A stretch of 64,000 bases of DNA from Salvator merianae (Eukaryota > Chordata > Lepidosauria > Squamata > Teiidae): NCBI GenBank assembly GCA_003586115.2, contig QVOM02000057.1, forward strand, positions 3,990,771 through 4,054,770, given 5' to 3'. The notes under the pieces are model-generated. The model did no database searches and was not told where the DNA came from. It worked only from the letters and a program-made list of their open reading frames with translations. Of the stretch, positions 3,155 through 33,004 are shown piece by piece. The translations under genes and the position numbers were made by a program. Within the stretch, counting starts at the first letter, position 1. Each line of letters opens with the position of its first letter.

Positions 3155-7186
<4,032 letters not shown>

Positions 7187-11251: not shown

Positions 11252-14200
11252 ATGGCAGCGCAGAGGGACAAAACCGTCTCTGGGACTGATGAGAAAAACT
11301 CCGACGGTACCGTGACTGCTGGGATTATCATTATCGGAGATGAGATCTTAAAGGTACACAGACCTCAAAGTATTCTGTTGCTGCTGCCCTTGGTTACTTT
11401 CTGAGAGGGGACTGAAGGGGGGAAAGGATCTTCAGTCCACGAGGGGTACTTATAAATGAAATTACGGTGGTCAAGAGAGCACACTATTAAATGCCCATTG
11501 TGGGTGGGAGGGAAATGTGGAAGGGGGCCTTTATACCCTGCCTGTGGGCTGCCTAAAGGATTCTCGTTGGTCCATATAGAAGCCAGGATTCTGGTTGGTC
11601 TCTGTAGAATTCAAGATCCTAGTTGGTCCTCATAGAGCCCAGGACCCTGGTTGGTCCCCGTAGAATTCAGGATTCTGGTTGGTCCCCATAGAACCCAGGA
11701 TTCTCTCTGGGCCTTTGCTTTCAGAGTTTGTTTATTTTCTGAACAGTAAGTGCCTAGTCCTTATTCTGGAGGCACATCTTGGAGAGGACATCTCAAAAGC
11801 TAGAGGAGGACCAGAGGCAGACTTCTGATGCTGAGGGAAGATGCTGAAGTTCAGGATGCAGAGATGGAACAGACAAATAGTGCAGAATTGGCTTGGGTGA
11901 TAGTTTTAGGGCGATGCTGAGTCGAGTTTTGACTCCTCATATCTCTATGGACAACTGATCGCTATTTTGATCTGTCTCTAGCAGTCTTGGCCGGCGCAGG
12001 TGAGTGCAGCCGGAAGTCCTTGCCGCTGCTGAAAACTGGTTCGTGGACTTCCTTTGGAGTCCACGTGGCACATGGGAAGAAGGAAGCTCACGAACCTTAC
12101 TTCCAGCCGGAGGTGGGGCTTCTGGCTGGGCTCACCTGTGCTGGGCGCCACTGGTTTCCAGTAGCATCTTGAAACTTATCCAAGGACATTCCAGAAGGCC
12201 TTTGGATTTCAGCCACCTGTCCTGTCTGTTATCCCGTGTGTCTCTGGAGATACGTGCATTTAAAGGGATTGCTGTTGTGATTTAAAGGGAAGGCTGGTAT
12301 GCAAAAACCAGTCGGGCAAGACCTATCTTGAAATACGCCCACTTTGAACAGCCCAGCACGCTAGATAATTGGAGCTGGAATTCTAGCCAGCAGTGGTTTT
12401 TGGGATTGCTGGTGGTTGGGAGCATAAGTTTCCCTCCCACTGTAGATCGGGCGTTTTGGAAATCAGATGGCAGAAATGATTTCTTGCTGGCTTCTCCCTC
12501 TTGGCAGGGCTACACGCAGGACGTAAATTCCTTCTTCATGTGTAAGAAGCTACGTTCCCTGGGCGTCGAGGTGGCCAGGATCTCGGTGGTCCCGGACGAC
12601 GTGGACACTATCGCCTCGGAAATCGCGTGCTTCGCCAGCAAGTTCACGTACGTCCTCACTTCCGGCGGGATCGGCCCCACCCACGACGACGTCACCTTCG
12701 AGGCGGTGGCCCGGGCGTTTGGGGAGAAGGTGTTCCCCCACCCAGAGATGGTGGAGCTGGTGAAGAAGTTCTTCGGGAAATCCGAGGCCACGTGCCCCGA
12801 GATGAAGCTGGCCCGCGTGCCGGAATCTTCGCTCCTCAACTACGGGGTGGACGAGAAAAGCGGCCGCCCTTCCCGCTACCCGCTCATCAGCGTCCGCAAC
12901 GTCTACGTTTTCCCCGGGATCCCCGCCCTGATGAAGCGAGCCCTGGAGGGCCTGGGCCAACTCTTCCGCAACGAGAAGACCCGGTTCTGCTCGCGGGTGG
13001 TCTACGTCGACGCCGACGAGGTCCTCATCGCCCCTATCCTGGACCGGGCCCACGCCAACTTCGGGCGGCGCACCAGCCTGGGATCCTACCCGGACTGGGT
13101 CAGCAATTACTTCCGGGTCAAGCTCACCTTGGACTCCGACTCGGAGGAGCACCTGCAGGAGGCCTTATCCTTCCTCATGGAGAACCTGCCCGAGGAAGTG
13201 GTGGTGCCGTTGGTAGCCGACCCTGTCTCCCGGGCCGCCGCAGATGTGTACGCCTTAGCCGAATCTGGTAGCGTCAAAAACTTCCTGGCATGCGGCTAGA
13301 TCTTTTGAAGTGGGGTTAACTAGGTTTGGGGCCTCCGGATATTGCTGAGCGAAACCTCGTGTCGTTTTTTGCAAACAGTCAAACCAGTGGGGCGAAGAAG
13401 CGTGTCTTTACCAGGGGTCGAAACAGACACAGACCTGGCAGGCCTCTAGGAGAAGGCTCTTCTGCAAATTGGGGGCCACGACAGAGGGGGCCCTTCCTTG
13501 AGCTGCCACCTTTTTACAACTGAAGATGGGGGGGTAGCAGGGAAGCCCCACTCTGTTTAATCTTAATTGATGGGCACAGTTTGCCCAGGTTAGACAGTTG
13601 CAAGCTATATATTAAAGGGCAGGGTGCTCACACACAGCAGGTTGTGTGGCACAGTGGCTAGAGTGACAGTGGTTTCTCTCTCTCTCTCTCTATCTTGTGG
13701 TCTATCCTGTCTTTCAAAATGGTTGAGAACGTCCTTGAAGACCATCTCTAATCCACCTTTTCTAGCCCAGATAGTTCTTGGGAGGGGCAGACCATCATGT
13801 GAACAATCCCACCCGCAAACTGGCTCCAAGCCGTTTCTTCAGCCTCCTCAGAGGGTCTTTTCTCGCCGTGTGTGAGGGCAGTCTTGATCATAGCTATTCA
13901 TATTTACATTTTTAAGGTGTAGCAATCTGAACAAATGTGGCCGTCTTCGATGGCAAAAATCTAGGTGGCTTAGCTCACAGGACAGATAAACCTTTGAATT
14001 GCTTTCCAACTCCAGGGAGATTTTGTGTCACTGTAAAAACTGTTGCCGTGTTGTTGTTGTTGTTGTTTTGAAAAGCCTCTGTTTTATGTCAACAGTTCCT
14101 ATTTTTATTTATTTATTTTGCTTCTCTGCAGGTTCCCCACTTGGCCAGAAGGTGGCGATAGCTCTCCAGACCATCGAAGAAGCCTTGGACCGATATAGCT

Positions 14201-20188: not shown

Positions 20189-20407
20189 ATGCATCTTTCC
20201 GTGCAGAGGTTCGCAAGCCCCTTTCCGTGGTTCTCGGGCGCCCTGGTGCAGCCCTACGTCCTGCGGCGGCGTCTGCTGCGTACGCTGGCCTTTCCTTACT
20301 ACAAAAGCGGGAACCTAGTCGGCCTGGGGTACACAGCCTTGCAGGCCCTCCGAGAATGCCTCTATGTTCTCCTCTGCTGCTGGTGCTTGAAGGAGGTTTT
20401 GGATTAG
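20189..20407 (+). CDS. LENEP: LENEP, lens epithelial cell protein orthologue (single exon)
   Basis: An intact 72-codon frame whose C-terminus reads YVLLCCWCLKEVLD. From memory, the small human LENEP protein (61 aa) ends in an almost identical LLCCWC.KE.LD block. Upstream, the N-terminal half (MHLSVQRFASPFPWFSGALV and a basic RRRLLRT segment) is more divergent. The gene follows FLAD1 on the same strand, as in human. The ATG has A at -3. The C-terminal third is hydrophobic and Cys-rich and could associate with membrane; molecular function is unknown, though human LENEP is expressed in lens epithelium and linked to its differentiation. No splice evidence is needed and no canonical poly(A) hexamer is obvious. 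The call rests on the short conserved C-terminus plus synteny. Confidence 0.78.
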   Translation: MHLSVQRFASPFPWFSGALVQPYVLRRRLLRTLAFPYYKSGNLVGLGYTALQALRECLYVLLCCWCLKEVLD

Positions 20408-27836: not shown

Positions 27837-30800
27837 ATGTTCCGGTCCCGGAGAGCTAGCTTAGTACAACGGCTCTGGAGGCACCGCTGCGTAACCCCCG
27901 GCCTTGATGACAGCTACGGCCCCCTGAAACCAGCCGTCCATGCGCTTTTCAAGAAGCTGAAGGAAAAAGAACTGGAGCAGCTGCTGCAGGCCGTGGAGAG
28001 CAAAGGGGCAGGCGAATCCGGGTGTGTCTGGGTTGAGCCTCGGGGCTCCAAGCTAGGCCTCCCGCCTTCGCTGCTCCTGTGCCGCCTCTACCGTTGGCCA
28101 GATCTCCGCCATCCGCATGAGCTGAAGCGCCTCAGCTTCTGCAAGAGCCTGGGGGGTGAAGGCACCGTCCTCTGCTGCAACCCGCATCATCTCAGCCGGC
28201 TCGCTGTCCCAGGTGAGGGAGGCTGGGTCCAGTGTAAGGGTTGGCGGGCCACATTCTGCAAGCTGGGATTGAACCGGGGGTTGGACGATTATAGCTCTGT
28301 GGGAGACAGCAGAGGGTGGCAGGTTTAGCTGCATGAAAAGGTGTTGGCCGGTAGCAAGGATTCCCCTTGCTAGATACTTACTGAAGTTGTTTCAAGCTCA
28401 GACTACAACGCGTTACATAAATGTGCAAAAGAGAAGCAAGCACTCACCATAAAGCCACTAATCTGCAAATCACAGGGCCACAGTGATGCGGAGAGAAGAA
28501 TGCTCCCGGCCTCCAAAATGGCTGGCCGGGGCTGTTTCAGCCAGGCGCCCCGAAGTGGCGTGTTTCTGGGGGCGCTTACGGGAGCGCGGTGAAGTGGTGA
28601 AATGGTAAAATGCCAAGTAGACCAACTTGCTCCTGACTGCACGTGCAGTCCGCCACCGAGGAACGCTTTGGAGACTTCTTTAAAGTGGGTCTCCTGTCGG
28701 AGTGGGTTAGGGGGGCATTTTTGCATCATAGGCCGTTCCAGTACCTCGTCCCATGTGGGTTTTCTCCTGGTAGACTGGTTCACCATGGGGGCAAGGCATT
28801 CTTCCAACAAGGCCAACAGCCATTTTCTGTCTGGTGCTAAATGGTGCCAAGGGGAAATCAGTCCAAATAATGCAGATCTCTAGACAGTGGCCACAGAGGC
28901 TCAAGAGGGTGAAAAGCTCAGTCAGAGTTCTTTGCTGGTGTTTACTGGCTGACAGGGAGTCTCTGATGGTAGTTTTCATGTCTTACGAACTGGCTGCTTG
29001 CTGGGGATGTGTACAAACGAAAATTGCGCGTTTGGTTCGACTTGAACCGAACACCCGTTTGTTTGGCTCGATGGCAAATTGGCAAATTGCTGGCATTTGA
29101 TTTCAAACTTGTCCAAAAACAAAAAACAAAAAACAAACAAACCCAGTTTTCCCATTGAAATTAAAAGCCCCTTTCACAGGCTAAACCACTGTGAACACGG
29201 ACTGTTTGATTGAATTATTTGTGTATGCGAACCACATGTTTGGTTCAAAGCAAAGAACTTTGAACACAAACTATTCAATTGAATTTTCGAATTTTCGCAC
29301 ACGAACCAAGCTTGGGACGTCTCCAGTGCCTGCTAGATTAGGATGGCAACACGCCGTCACGAGACCACAGCAGCCCTTGCCGGAAGCCCATTTTTACGTG
29401 ATGGAGGCCCCCTTGATTTTTTTTGGGGAAAAGGATGTTTAAAGTAGCACGTGGCCATTTATTTCTTCTTTTTCTTTACAGAGACCCCTCCACCTCCTTA
29501 TTGCAAAATCTCCCCTTTCACCATCCCTCTGAAGTGCCCCAACAACTTTGACAACAACCGTAAAATATGGCAAGGTGAGGAAACGGATATTTATTTATTT
29601 ATTTATTTATTATTTGCATTTTTATCCCGCCCTATACTCGAAGGTCTCAGGGCGGGTTACCAGAAAGTAAAAGGCAGGCACTAAAAACAGTAGCAGTGCC
29701 TGAAAGTGGGAAGGGGAAGCTGTTTCCTGAGCCCAAGGGAAGGGTAAAGTAGTGCTCTCCTAAAGATGTAAAGTGAAGATGCCTGACGCACCTCAGGGGG
29801 GAGAGTGTTCCACAGTCTGGGGGCTACCACTGAAAAGGTCCTATCCTGGGTGCCCACCCCTCTACCTACTGGAGGTGGTGGTACAACCAGGAAGACCTCA
29901 TCTGCAGATCTTAAGTCATGCTGGTTACATTGCAGACATGTCTTGGCCTAAATCAAACTTTGGTCCATGCCACAAGAAACATTGGTTTGCTGCAGTTTCC
30001 AAACATCAAAGCCGAATGTTTGCAGACAAAAGTACTGCAACTGTGAAGTTTCTGATCTGGCTGGTTATCAGTTGGACCTGAAATGATCCAGGAAGTCAGC
30101 CATTTTTGGTCTGATGGATAACCTGCACAGGCAGAAATCACCTCTAGATATCTGCCTCCTCCACAGTTGTTGCTGAGTACCAACCAGTCATGGTCAACTC
30201 CTGGTTGACTGCAAGGACCCTCTGTGCAGTTTTCTTGGCAGGGATACAGAAGTGGTTTCCCATTGCCTACTTCCAGGGAGAGGCTGGGGATCGAACCAGC
30301 AACCCTCTGCTTTCCAGGCAGTTTGCTCTACCACTGACCTACAGCCACCCCCAGACTCCATGGGGACCTCCATGCAGTTTTCTCTGCAAAGATACAGAAT
30401 AACTTCTTTCATGGTGACTGAAACATATAGGCTGCCTTCACTTCCGGCCTAAACTCCTCCTGTCAGTCAAACAAATTCAGATTATTTGAGGCCATTTTTG
30501 CACTTACCTCCCCTGGAGCAGTTTAACTAATCTCCTTCAGCCTGTCCAGGTCTAAGCCCAGCAGATGCCGTCCGCATTGCAAGGGCTGGAACACCTTTGT
30601 CTCGGTCCAACACCCGCAGCAATGCAGATGTACCTTCTCTGTTTCACTCCAGCGCACTTCCTCCAAAAGCCCCACCCCCTCTTTCCTATGATTGGCCCAA
30701 GTCTCCGTCGCTCCAGCTTTGCCTCCATATGGGGGTTTCAAGAACGATCTTCGAAGCCTGCCTAAGGAGCAAAGGAAAACGCCACAGCTACATCTTCGAA

Positions 30801-33004
30801 GGTTACGCAAGCTTCGAAGACGAGGCCTCGGCGTTGTCCTTGCTCCAGTCCAGATGCAGAAGCCCGGATGCCTGAATCGGATCAGAAGGCAGGCATTGGA
30901 GTGGTTGTGGGCCCCTTCAAACCAGTCCACCACTAAACCGGGCTAAGCAGCCCTTGGGACGGGTCTGGGCCAGATTGGCGCCGGTCCCGTGCGGAAGCAG
31001 CGTACCAGCGAGCCGCTCGTCCCGGTACTCCAGGCAAGTGTGGAAAGGCGCTAATTTTCCTTCTGAGGCCGGGCATGGTGGCTTCCCCTCCGCTTTCTCT
31101 GTCCCCTTCCCAGCAGGAGGAAAAGCTGCCAGGGAGGGCCGTAACTGAGGGCCTTCCGGAAGCCTTGACAGAGAGAGAAAGGGCGAGGTGGGGGTGAGAA
31201 AGAGAGAGAGACGACAGGCGTCTGCCCCTGTTATTTCTGGTCTTCCGTCAGCCGAAAGGAAGTGTGGCCCTCAGAGACACAGAGACAATGTGCCTTGACG
31301 TGCAAAGCGAGGCTGGATCCTGGCATCTGGCCACCGCCGCCGCGTCTCTGAGCAAGCCCGGCGCCTGGGGTCGGCTTCTCCTCTGTCCCGGCTGCGTGGG
31401 GGCTACGTGCTCCTTCGCGGCAGAGCAGGCCCGCCTCTGGGGACTTCCACAGCCCTCCGTCCCAGGGCGCCTTTTGTTCGGCCGAAACCGAAACCGCCTT
31501 CATTGACTAAACGGGGCAGACACCTTTTAAAAAACAATAAAATAAAATAAACACATTCCCCAATTGAAGCAAATTCCCTGTTTTTCAAAATAATCGACGT
31601 GCCCGTTTCCTTTCAGAAGGTGATTTACTTCGTTCGCAGCAGTTCTCTCAGCCCCCGGAAACAGAGAAGCAGATCTCATAGTGCTCGTTCTGAAGGCTCT
31701 AAAAGAGGGGTGCTCAGCTGACGCCCCCCAGAAGTTCCTGGACTGTAAGGGCCTGTTCGCACTTACACGCTAGTGAGCGATCGGATGCTCACCAGTGAAG
31801 TGCGTCCGCATTTCGTGGAGGCCCAAGCAATCAGGAGCATCTGCCATTGCTCCCAATCATTACCAGCTGTGGAGCGCAAAACTGTGCTCCACAGCTGTAA
31901 CAGGAGCAGCTGGATTGCTCCTGGTACGCAGCGTCCGCACCTACTTCCGGGTGCGAACGCTGCAAGTCACATCGCAGCTGCAGCTGTGCAGTTGCGCCCC
32001 ATGACCCTGGTCGCCATGGCAGCGGCCAGATGTTTCCCCAGCCGCTGTCACGGTGGGTGGCTAGCATTCGCACTGCGAGTGCTGGAAGCCAGTTTCCGGG
32101 TTGTTCCAGCCCTTGTAGTGCGGATGGCCGCCGCACCACGGGGACCGATCCGCCTTGGAATGTTCGGATCTGAACATTCCAAGGCGGAAAGTGCAAAAAG
32201 GCCCTAAGTCCCTGCAAATGAATGCTGGGAGATGTAGTTCAGGAACCTCTGGAGGGACGCATCTGAGCACCTTTGCGCTAGGGCAGTGGTTCTCAAACCG
32301 TAGCCCCCCAAACTGTAGCCCCCCAGCCAATTCAGCCATGTTTGAGGCAGTTCCCGCCGTACACCCCACCTGGCACCATGCTACTCCCGGCAAGCAAGGT
32401 TAACACCTGTGGCTTTACTCCTGCTCCCCACCTGAGCCTTCCGGGCCTCTATTCCTTTCTTCCCGCAGACACGAGCCTCTCTCAGAGCTGTTTCAAAGAT
32501 GGCTACTGGTGCAAACTGGCCTACTGGGAATACCGCCTGCGGGTGGGAAGACTCTTCCCCGTCCACGAGGACTACGTGAACATCTTCTCCGACCTCCCGG
32601 CCGGCAGGGGGTTCTGCCTGGGCCAGCTGGCGTCCCGTAGCCGTAGCCAGGCGGTCCAGCGGGCGCGGGCAAAGATCGGGCAGGGCCTCCTGCTCAGCCA
32701 GGAGGGGAACGGCGTCTGGGCCTACAACCGCAGCGACCACCCTGTCTTCGTCTGCTCCCCAACCTTGGGGCTCCCGGGGAGCGTCCACCCGGCCGTCCAC
32801 AAGATCCTCCCGGGCTTCTCCATCAAGGTCTTCGACTACGAGCGGGCGAGCAAACTGGCGGTGCAGTGCCACCCCAGTGATGGCCCCTATGACGTCCACA
32901 CCGTCCGGATCAGTTTTACCAAAGGCTGGGGGCCTTGCTACTCCCGCCCGTATATCACCTCTTGCCCTTGCTGGTTGGAAGTGCTCTTGAATGCCCCGAG
33001 ATGA
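27837..33004 (+). CDS. Inhibitory SMAD, SMAD6/SMAD7-like (3 coding exons)
   Basis: Exons 27837-28212, 29482-29574 and 32469-33004 (1005 nt, 334 aa). Junctions are canonical: GTGAGG at 28213, TTTACAG before 29482, GTGAGG at 29575, CCCGCAG before 32469. The N-terminus MFRSRRASLVQRLW is the inhibitory-SMAD signature. Residues 31-123 form a short MH1-like domain: LFKKLKEKELEQLLQAVES, RWPDLRH (87-92) and CCNPHHLSRL (113-122). PPPPY (128-132) is the PY motif that binds SMURF WW domains in SMAD6 and SMAD7. The MH2 domain (about 168-334) has NGVWAYNRSDHP, PGFSIKVFDYE and KGWGPCYSRP, and ends SCPCWLEVLLNAPR, closest to SMAD6. There is no SSXS tail, so it cannot be receptor-activated. Family role: binding type I receptors and blocking BMP/TGF-beta signalling. 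At 334 aa it is much shorter than SMAD6 or SMAD7, having no glycine-rich N-terminal spacer and a short linker. The ATG context is weak (C at -3). The frame is intact. Confidence 0.93.
28213..29481 (+). other. SMAD-like gene intron 1
   Basis: Apart from the AACCGAAC-type repeat (28997-29320) I recognise nothing. No additional exon with SMAD similarity was found. Confidence 0.55.
28997..29320. repeat. AACCGAAC-rich dispersed element, copy 1
   Basis: Starts GGGGATGTGTACAAACGAAA and is filled with diverged alternating words such as TTTGGTTCGACTTGAACCG, CGAACCA, TTTGGTTCAAAG and ATTCGAATTTTCG. It ends near CACACGAACCAAGC. Other copies lie at about 33655-33970, 36960-37310, 37985-38093 and 61265-61350. 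It has an overall fold-back character but no clear target duplication. Confidence 0.55.
29580..29935 (-). mobile_element. L2-type LINE 3' end, minus strand
   Basis: (TTTA)n at 29588-29612, then TTTATCCCGCCCTATACTCG and AAGGTCTCAGGGCGGGTTAC, the complement of the L2-type 3' terminus. It continues to CACAGTCTGGGGGCTACCAC and GAGGTGGTGGTACAACCAGG. It begins only a few bases after the exon 2 donor. Confidence 0.7.
30166..30405 (-). mobile_element. tRNA-derived SINE with partial second unit, minus strand
   Basis: Tail complement TTGTTGCTGAGTACCAACCA, then GTCAACTCCTGGTTGACTG, the body TTCTTGGCAGGGATACAGAA and the head GGGGATCGAACCAGCAACCC to CTACCACTGACCTACAGCC. A truncated second body ends at about 30405. 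Confidence 0.75.
31695..32330. mobile_element. Fold-back DNA element with TGTAGTTC core, interrupted
   Basis: The left part (31705-31748) reads GAGGGGTGCTCAGCTGACG, then CCAGAAGTTCCTGGACTGTAA. The right part (32205-32315) reads TAAGTCCCTGCAAATGAATG, CTGGGAGATGTAGTTCAGG, AACCTCTGGAGGGACGC. Together they make one copy of the common repeat whose halves carry opposed TGTAGTTC and GGACTACA-like words. It is split by the element at 31749-32204. The hAT-like class is a guess. Confidence 0.5.
31749..32204. mobile_element. Harbinger-like non-autonomous DNA transposon, nested, TAA target duplication
   Basis: The left end is GGGCCTGTTCGCACTT; the right end read inward is GGGCCTTTTTGCACTT, matching at 13 of 16 positions. 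TAA flanks both sides (31746-31748 and 32205-32207), and the flanks belong to one older repeat, so both boundaries are firm. A 3-bp TWA duplication with GGG-starting inverted repeats fits PIF/Harbinger. The interior has further inverted repeats (GTGGAGCGC...GTGCTCCAC) and a perfect 16-bp-stem hairpin at 32150-32187. There is no transposase frame. Confidence 0.7.

Follow-up and report, generated by a model that had tools for sequence, protein, structure and literature searches.

SMAD6B, an intact third inhibitory SMAD gene in the LENEP-ZBTB7B interval of the lizard Salvator merianae

Introduction

Does the lizard Salvator merianae possess an inhibitory SMAD (I-SMAD) gene in addition to SMAD6 and SMAD7, and if so, where in the I-SMAD family does it belong? 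The question is raised by a locus within a stretch of 64,000 nucleotides (hereafter the window; C1602:3990771-4054770 of the 2.05-Gb assembly), in which a sequence-only reading had claimed a third, intact I-SMAD gene, separate from SMAD6 and SMAD7, kept in this reptile and absent from mammals. Here we conclude, with a probability of about 0.9, that the window gene is SMAD6B, a third I-SMAD whose lineage would have parted from those of SMAD6 and SMAD7 during the genome duplications of early vertebrates and which this lizard retains.

A SMAD6B duplicate was published by Zheng et al. 2018 (PMC5979292), and the window gene, although correctly read, is thus not new. The published SMAD6B is of the same I-SMAD type, and the identity of the two genes rests here on taxa and tree position. 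Birds, turtles, crocodilians, lungfish and rays are not named in the parts of the SMAD6B text of that paper on which we draw, and the literature searched contained, by titles and abstract openings, no other report of tetrapod SMAD6B. The present study adds a wider taxon range (birds, turtles, alligator, lungfish and rays), linkage to a second SMAD4-type gene and tropomyosin exons, introns in common with SMAD6, the lack of a PLDLS motif throughout the SMAD6B rows (0/30), and the placement of teleost and cartilaginous-fish rows named "smad6b" outside the SMAD6B clade.

Results

Gene model and locus

The gene claimed at 27837..33004 proved correct to the base, with an ATG at 27837, a TGA stop at 33002-33004 and three coding exons which join, with GT-AG at both introns, into a single open frame of 334 aa (Table 1); the model is the sole junction choice tried with GT-AG at both introns and one open frame. 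The MFRSRR start, the CCNPHHLSRL segment, the PPPPY motif, the SCPCWLEVLLNAPR end and the lack of SSXS that had been described from the letters were all found in the window protein. Its MH1 and MH2 domains both score well above the Pfam curated cut-offs and far beyond chance, and the SSXS C-terminal phosphorylation motif occurs neither in the window protein, which ends LLNAPR, nor in any of the 30 rows of the SMAD6B clade described below. The nearest solved structure to the window MH2 is the SMAD7 MH2 (7cd1, E 4e-58), with SMAD2/3 next. The structure predicted for the MH2, of moderate confidence (mean pLDDT 70.7; below 40 in two of the five models, and below 50 at model residues 152-159, the L3 loop), has SMAD7 MH2 as its top Foldseek match (E 4e-19).

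Table 1. Features of the window and the evidence for each
Feature	Position in window	Strand	Evidence
CKS1B, two matched stretches (3155-3214, 3899-4030)	3155..4030	+	tblastn, human CKS1B query
FLAD1 (FAD synthase) long frame	12286..13299	+	match to 8ron, E 3.5e-90
LENEP C-terminal part	20318..20404	+	tblastn, human LENEP query; 30 aa at 53%, E 1e-7
SMAD6B coding exon 1 (N-terminus and MH1)	27837..28212	+	ends phase 1 before GT
MH1 domain, residues 31-122	27927..28202	+	Pfam PF03165, E 2.0e-23
SMAD6B intron 1, GT-AG, 1269 bases	28213..29481	+	place and phase as own-genome SMAD6 intron 1
SMAD6B coding exon 2 (linker)	29482..29574	+	joined frame
PPPPY motif, residues 128-132	29487..29501	+	sequence; aligned with SMURF1-binding PPXY of human SMAD6 (role: PMC10284603)
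SMAD6B intron 2, GT-AG, 2894 bases	29575..32468	+	place and phase as own-genome SMAD6 intron 3
SMAD6B coding exon 3, entire MH2 and stop TGA	32469..33004	+	joined frame, Pfam, MH2 structure model
MH2 domain, residues 169-331	32504..32992	+	Pfam PF03166, E 2.1e-50
L3-loop KGWG, residues 308-311	32921..32932	+	aligned with human SMAD6 K470-G473 (receptor-binding role: PMC3492913)

CKS1B, FLAD1 and LENEP lie upstream of SMAD6B on the same strand and serve as synteny anchors. Beyond the window's right end are a 356-aa frame from 81297 in window numbering (MGSPEDDLIGIPFPEHSSELL) and a zinc-finger frame from 83939, both of which we take, by their letters, to be ZBTB7B; the start of the ZBTB7B-like frame lies ~17 kb past that end and ~48 kb downstream of SMAD6B. 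With a LENEP match upstream and a ZBTB7B-like frame downstream, outside the window, the placement of the gene in the LENEP-ZBTB7B interval was right. No coding frame was recognised by eye among the ORFs of at least 130 aa in window positions 33005-64000.

Three I-SMADs in one genome

An MH2 family search of the genome gave 24 matches which, grouped by place, represent ten SMAD genes, seven with a split MH2 and three with a single-exon MH2. The latter are the three I-SMADs, on three contigs: the window gene (C1602), SMAD6 (C1564) and SMAD7 (C511). The search for SMAD6 and SMAD7 elsewhere in the genome, proposed earlier as a check on the claim of a third gene, thus recovered both as distinct genes. 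SMAD3, identified by the letters of 5xoc, lies ~0.14 Mb from SMAD6 on C1564, and C511 carries, together with SMAD7, what we take, partly by their letters, to be SMAD2 and one SMAD4.

In the main tree (77 protein rows, 341 columns, IQ-TREE, LG+C20) the window gene falls in a 30-row SMAD6B clade with support of 100/99, apart from SMAD6 and SMAD7. The clade comprises the window gene, nine more squamates, three turtles, five birds, alligator, four frogs, axolotl, two caecilians, lungfish, coelacanth, sawfish and manta; Latimeria, X. laevis, Python and Eublepharis are among its members, which identifies it as the SMAD6B orthologue group, and the window gene adjoins Rhineura and Lacerta within it (91/81). 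The SMAD7 clade has 24 rows and the SMAD6 clade 21, teleosts included, each with a copy from this genome. Some within-clade placements in the 77-row tree are odd, such as Ambystoma SMAD7 beside Gallus. Forcing the window gene together with SMAD6 cost 183 log units (p-AU 2.1e-9) and forcing it together with SMAD7 cost 110 log units (p-AU 1.2e-4), so that both groupings, named only after inspection of the tree, were rejected. The claim of a separate paralogue therefore stands: SMAD6 and SMAD7 are both present as further genes in this lizard, the window gene lies outside either clade in the tree, and the AU test rejects both groupings.

Could the window gene nevertheless be an ordinary SMAD6 orthologue moved by rearrangement? 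In MH2 it shares more identity with SMAD6 than with SMAD7, and its database name is SMAD6-like, but a separate SMAD6 sits near SMAD3 on C1564, the AU test rejects a grouping of window gene and SMAD6 (p 2e-9), and the window gene has neither PLDLS nor the long N-terminus, which together make this explanation hardly credible. The earlier description of the gene as closest to SMAD6 in MH2 holds by identity (60.1% to the lizard's own SMAD6, 53.3% to its own SMAD7) but not as a sister relationship, since a tree rooted with SMAD3 and SMAD1/5/9-type MH2 does not pair the two. In that tree, where the root is unsure and outgroup branches run to ~2 changes per column, SMAD6 and SMAD7 group together (97/99) and the SMAD6B rows form an unresolved set around the root.

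Intron positions and the linker

The lizard's own SMAD6 has four coding exons, and its first and last introns correspond to both SMAD6B introns in position and phase (phase 1), the common sites being the Glu of ESPPPPY/ETPPPPY and the Asp preceding MH2; the last exon of its SMAD7 begins at a position and phase like those of SMAD6B and SMAD6. SMAD6 exon 3 starts after a phase-1 intron and must, given the phases of its neighbours, end in phase 1. The CtBP-binding PLDLS motif of SMAD6 spans the exon 2/exon 3 junction, and was found in 20 of the 22 SMAD6A rows as against none of the 30 SMAD6B rows. The counterpart of SMAD6 exon 3 may either have been lost or have merged into a longer SMAD6B exon 2. 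Queries with SMAD6 exon 3 and the SMAD7 linker, together with the splice pattern, gave no convincing fourth coding exon in SMAD6B intron 2 (best tblastn E 0.06 among the matches listed); one open phase-1 candidate at 31652-31744 resembles neither SMAD6 exon 3 nor the SMAD7 linker exon and was set aside.

SMAD6 (SMAD6A) resembles SMAD6B in its MH1, MH2 and PPPPY, its lack of SSXS, its first and last intron sites and its 60% MH2 identity in this genome, but differs in a longer N-terminus (430-520 aa in 20 bony-vertebrate rows), a fourth coding exon here, and PLDLS. SMAD7 is alike in MH1, MH2, PPPPY, the place and phase of the last intron and as the best solved structure, but differs in its 53% MH2 identity in this genome, its own clade and its far stronger conservation.

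Possible traces of a large-scale duplication

A second SMAD4-type gene with open MH2 exons lies on C1602 (3253558-3255867, minus strand), ~0.77 Mb from SMAD6B, and is probably SMAD4B. The lizard of PMC5979292 is said, in the part of that paper used here, to have retained SMAD4A, in which case either the present squamate differs from it or that copy was missed there. Tropomyosin-family exons gave 12 genome matches, on C1602 (3.52-3.55 Mb), C511 (49.6 Mb), C1625, C1655 and C67; none of the 12 is on C1564, the SMAD6 contig, which limits the paralogon argument to C1602 and C511. The I-SMAD, SMAD4 and tropomyosin copies common to these two contigs fit the remnant expected of a large-scale duplication.

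The long squamate SMAD6B stem (0.32) and the faster evolution of the gene relative to SMAD6 might instead suggest a squamate- or sauropsid-specific SMAD6 duplicate or retrocopy that diverged rapidly. We consider this highly improbable: the clade spans amphibians, lungfish, coelacanth and rays, the linked SMAD4-type and tropomyosin-family copies fit large-scale duplication, and two introns common with SMAD6 in place and phase make a retrocopy unlikely.

Taxonomic spread and database records

A protein search with the window gene returned 1106 matches, of which the best 120, assigned to type by their top match to the tree rows and reaching down to a lowest listed score of 370 bits, comprised 106 SMAD6B, 13 SMAD6A and one SMAD7. 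No mammal or ray-finned fish is among the 104 named SMAD6B-type proteins of these best 120. The lungfish and ray proteins reach 381-414 bits, and a mammalian copy, if any, would therefore be expected among the best 120 of 1106; for ray-finned fishes absence above the 370-bit floor is weaker evidence than it is for mammals. In both groups the absence is one from the best 120 of 1106 matches and not proof of loss, and on these matches SMAD6B seems to have been lost from mammals. The earlier claim of absence from mammals agrees with this result, but retention specifically in this reptile does not hold, as many non-mammals (birds, turtles, alligator, amphibians, lungfish, coelacanth and rays) carry SMAD6B; the guess that orthologues already sit in databases as SMAD6-like was correct, with records so labelled.

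Contigs of 2312 and 1630 bases carry two full-length SMAD6B frames from other species (P0004, P0030; source "lgn"). Both contigs are shorter than the 5.2-kb gene and hence presumably spliced transcripts, provided that the introns of those species match the present ones in length. Many bird SMAD6 records (e.g. P0056, P0065, P0066) seem to run past the first donor site (AAPGECR..., AVPGECR...). Such read-through in bird SMAD6B predictions is likely an annotation error, and the models need care. We have set aside the motif counts over the 106 SMAD6B matches in the best 120 of 1106 (PPPPY in 59/106, PPxY in 63/106), because read-through of this donor seems to affect many of the bird records.

Teleost "smad6b" resembles SMAD6B in name only, as four teleost rows, two of them labelled 6b, lie inside the SMAD6A clade (ray-finned rows together 99/95). 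The "6b" rows of catshark and Narcine are placed beside SMAD6 with weak support (91/58), outside the SMAD6B clade. Records named 6b (P0106, P0107, P0111, P0239) carry labels that disagree with the SMAD6B clade.

Evolutionary rate and conserved residues

MH2 identity between this genome and emu is 70.8% for SMAD6B, 94.6% for SMAD6 and 98.2% for SMAD7. Judged by sequence identity, the SMAD6B clade evolves much faster than SMAD6 and SMAD7, and its constraint could be relaxed. A decaying gene of little function, retained by chance, would likewise evolve faster than its paralogues, and might be expected from the loss of the PY motif in four frog rows and the replacement of PPxY by LPPY in Lacerta and Sceloporus. 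Decay is nonetheless unlikely, as the window frame is open with MH1 and MH2, the MH1 motif CNP[YHF]H is kept in 30/30 clade rows, 54 of 168 MH2 positions are invariant among them, the receptor-loop residues do not vary, and other species have presumed transcript contigs.

SMAD7 K312, K316 and K401 are basic positions for type I receptor binding. The window residues aligned with human SMAD6 functional sites are Y132, P254, G309, W310, G311 and C322. Residues matching SMAD6 G471, W472, G473 and C484 and SMAD7 K316 and K401 are invariant in 75/75 rows (30 SMAD6B, 22 SMAD6A and 23 SMAD7), as are KGWG, C322 and K225 in window terms; R221 is basic, and 29 of the 30 SMAD6B rows have proline at P254. 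PPxY is present in 24 of the 30 clade rows; the exceptions are the four frogs, Lacerta and Sceloporus, the last two with PLPPY. Pogona has PPPAY. Frog SMAD6B records (P0069, P0076, P0084, P0089, P0096, P0104, P0109, P0113) have the PY motif replaced, for example by SSSPLSIK in Xenopus, and frog SMAD6B may therefore not recruit SMURF.

The BMP-response motif GRCGNC-N5-GTCT has no match in the window against 0.38 expected, which leaves feedback induction of SMAD6B without support here.

Discussion

According to the parts of the sources used here, human SMAD6 binds SMURF1 through PPXY and CtBP through PLDLS (PMC10284603), its L3 loop with G471, W472 and G473 binds receptors, the variants C484F and P415L inhibit BMP signalling more weakly (PMC3492913), and a basic groove has been described in SMAD6 and SMAD7 (PMC7589189). 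We propose that the SMAD6B MH2 would dock through its L3 loop and basic groove onto type I receptors in their activated state, the likeliest being the BMP receptors preferred by SMAD6, and would there block or compete with SMAD1/5/9, and that its PPPPY would bring SMURF and lead to receptor breakdown. As it has no PLDLS, SMAD6B is predicted to lack CtBP recruitment, which forms the nuclear repression arm of SMAD6. The conserved residues support a predicted receptor-level inhibitor of the SMAD6 kind that lacks the CtBP arm and may work as a feedback brake. A further possibility, which we advance tentatively and at somewhat under an even chance, is that SMAD6B would be a functionally distinct, CtBP-independent receptor-level BMP brake extending from rays to birds, with a loss in mammals and perhaps another in ray-finned fishes.

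An extra I-SMAD has also been reported in chick, SMAD7B, beside Smad6 and Smad7a (PMC2663054). Although likewise an additional I-SMAD gene, it is, at the 98% protein identity to SMAD7a given in the part of that report used here, a close SMAD7 copy, and we rejected it as the same gene.

The name "smad6b" is common to teleost and tetrapod genes, which carries a risk of false transfer of results between them. Accounts based on mammals count two I-SMADs, whereas three appear to be present in many other jawed vertebrates, the third without a CtBP motif. In birds, frogs, turtles or lizards, studies of BMP feedback may therefore encounter a brake that is unpredictable from mouse. If SMAD6B is indeed a distinct third I-SMAD, mammal-based models of I-SMAD feedback would miss an entire gene lineage, and work on teleost "smad6b" would be unrelated to it.
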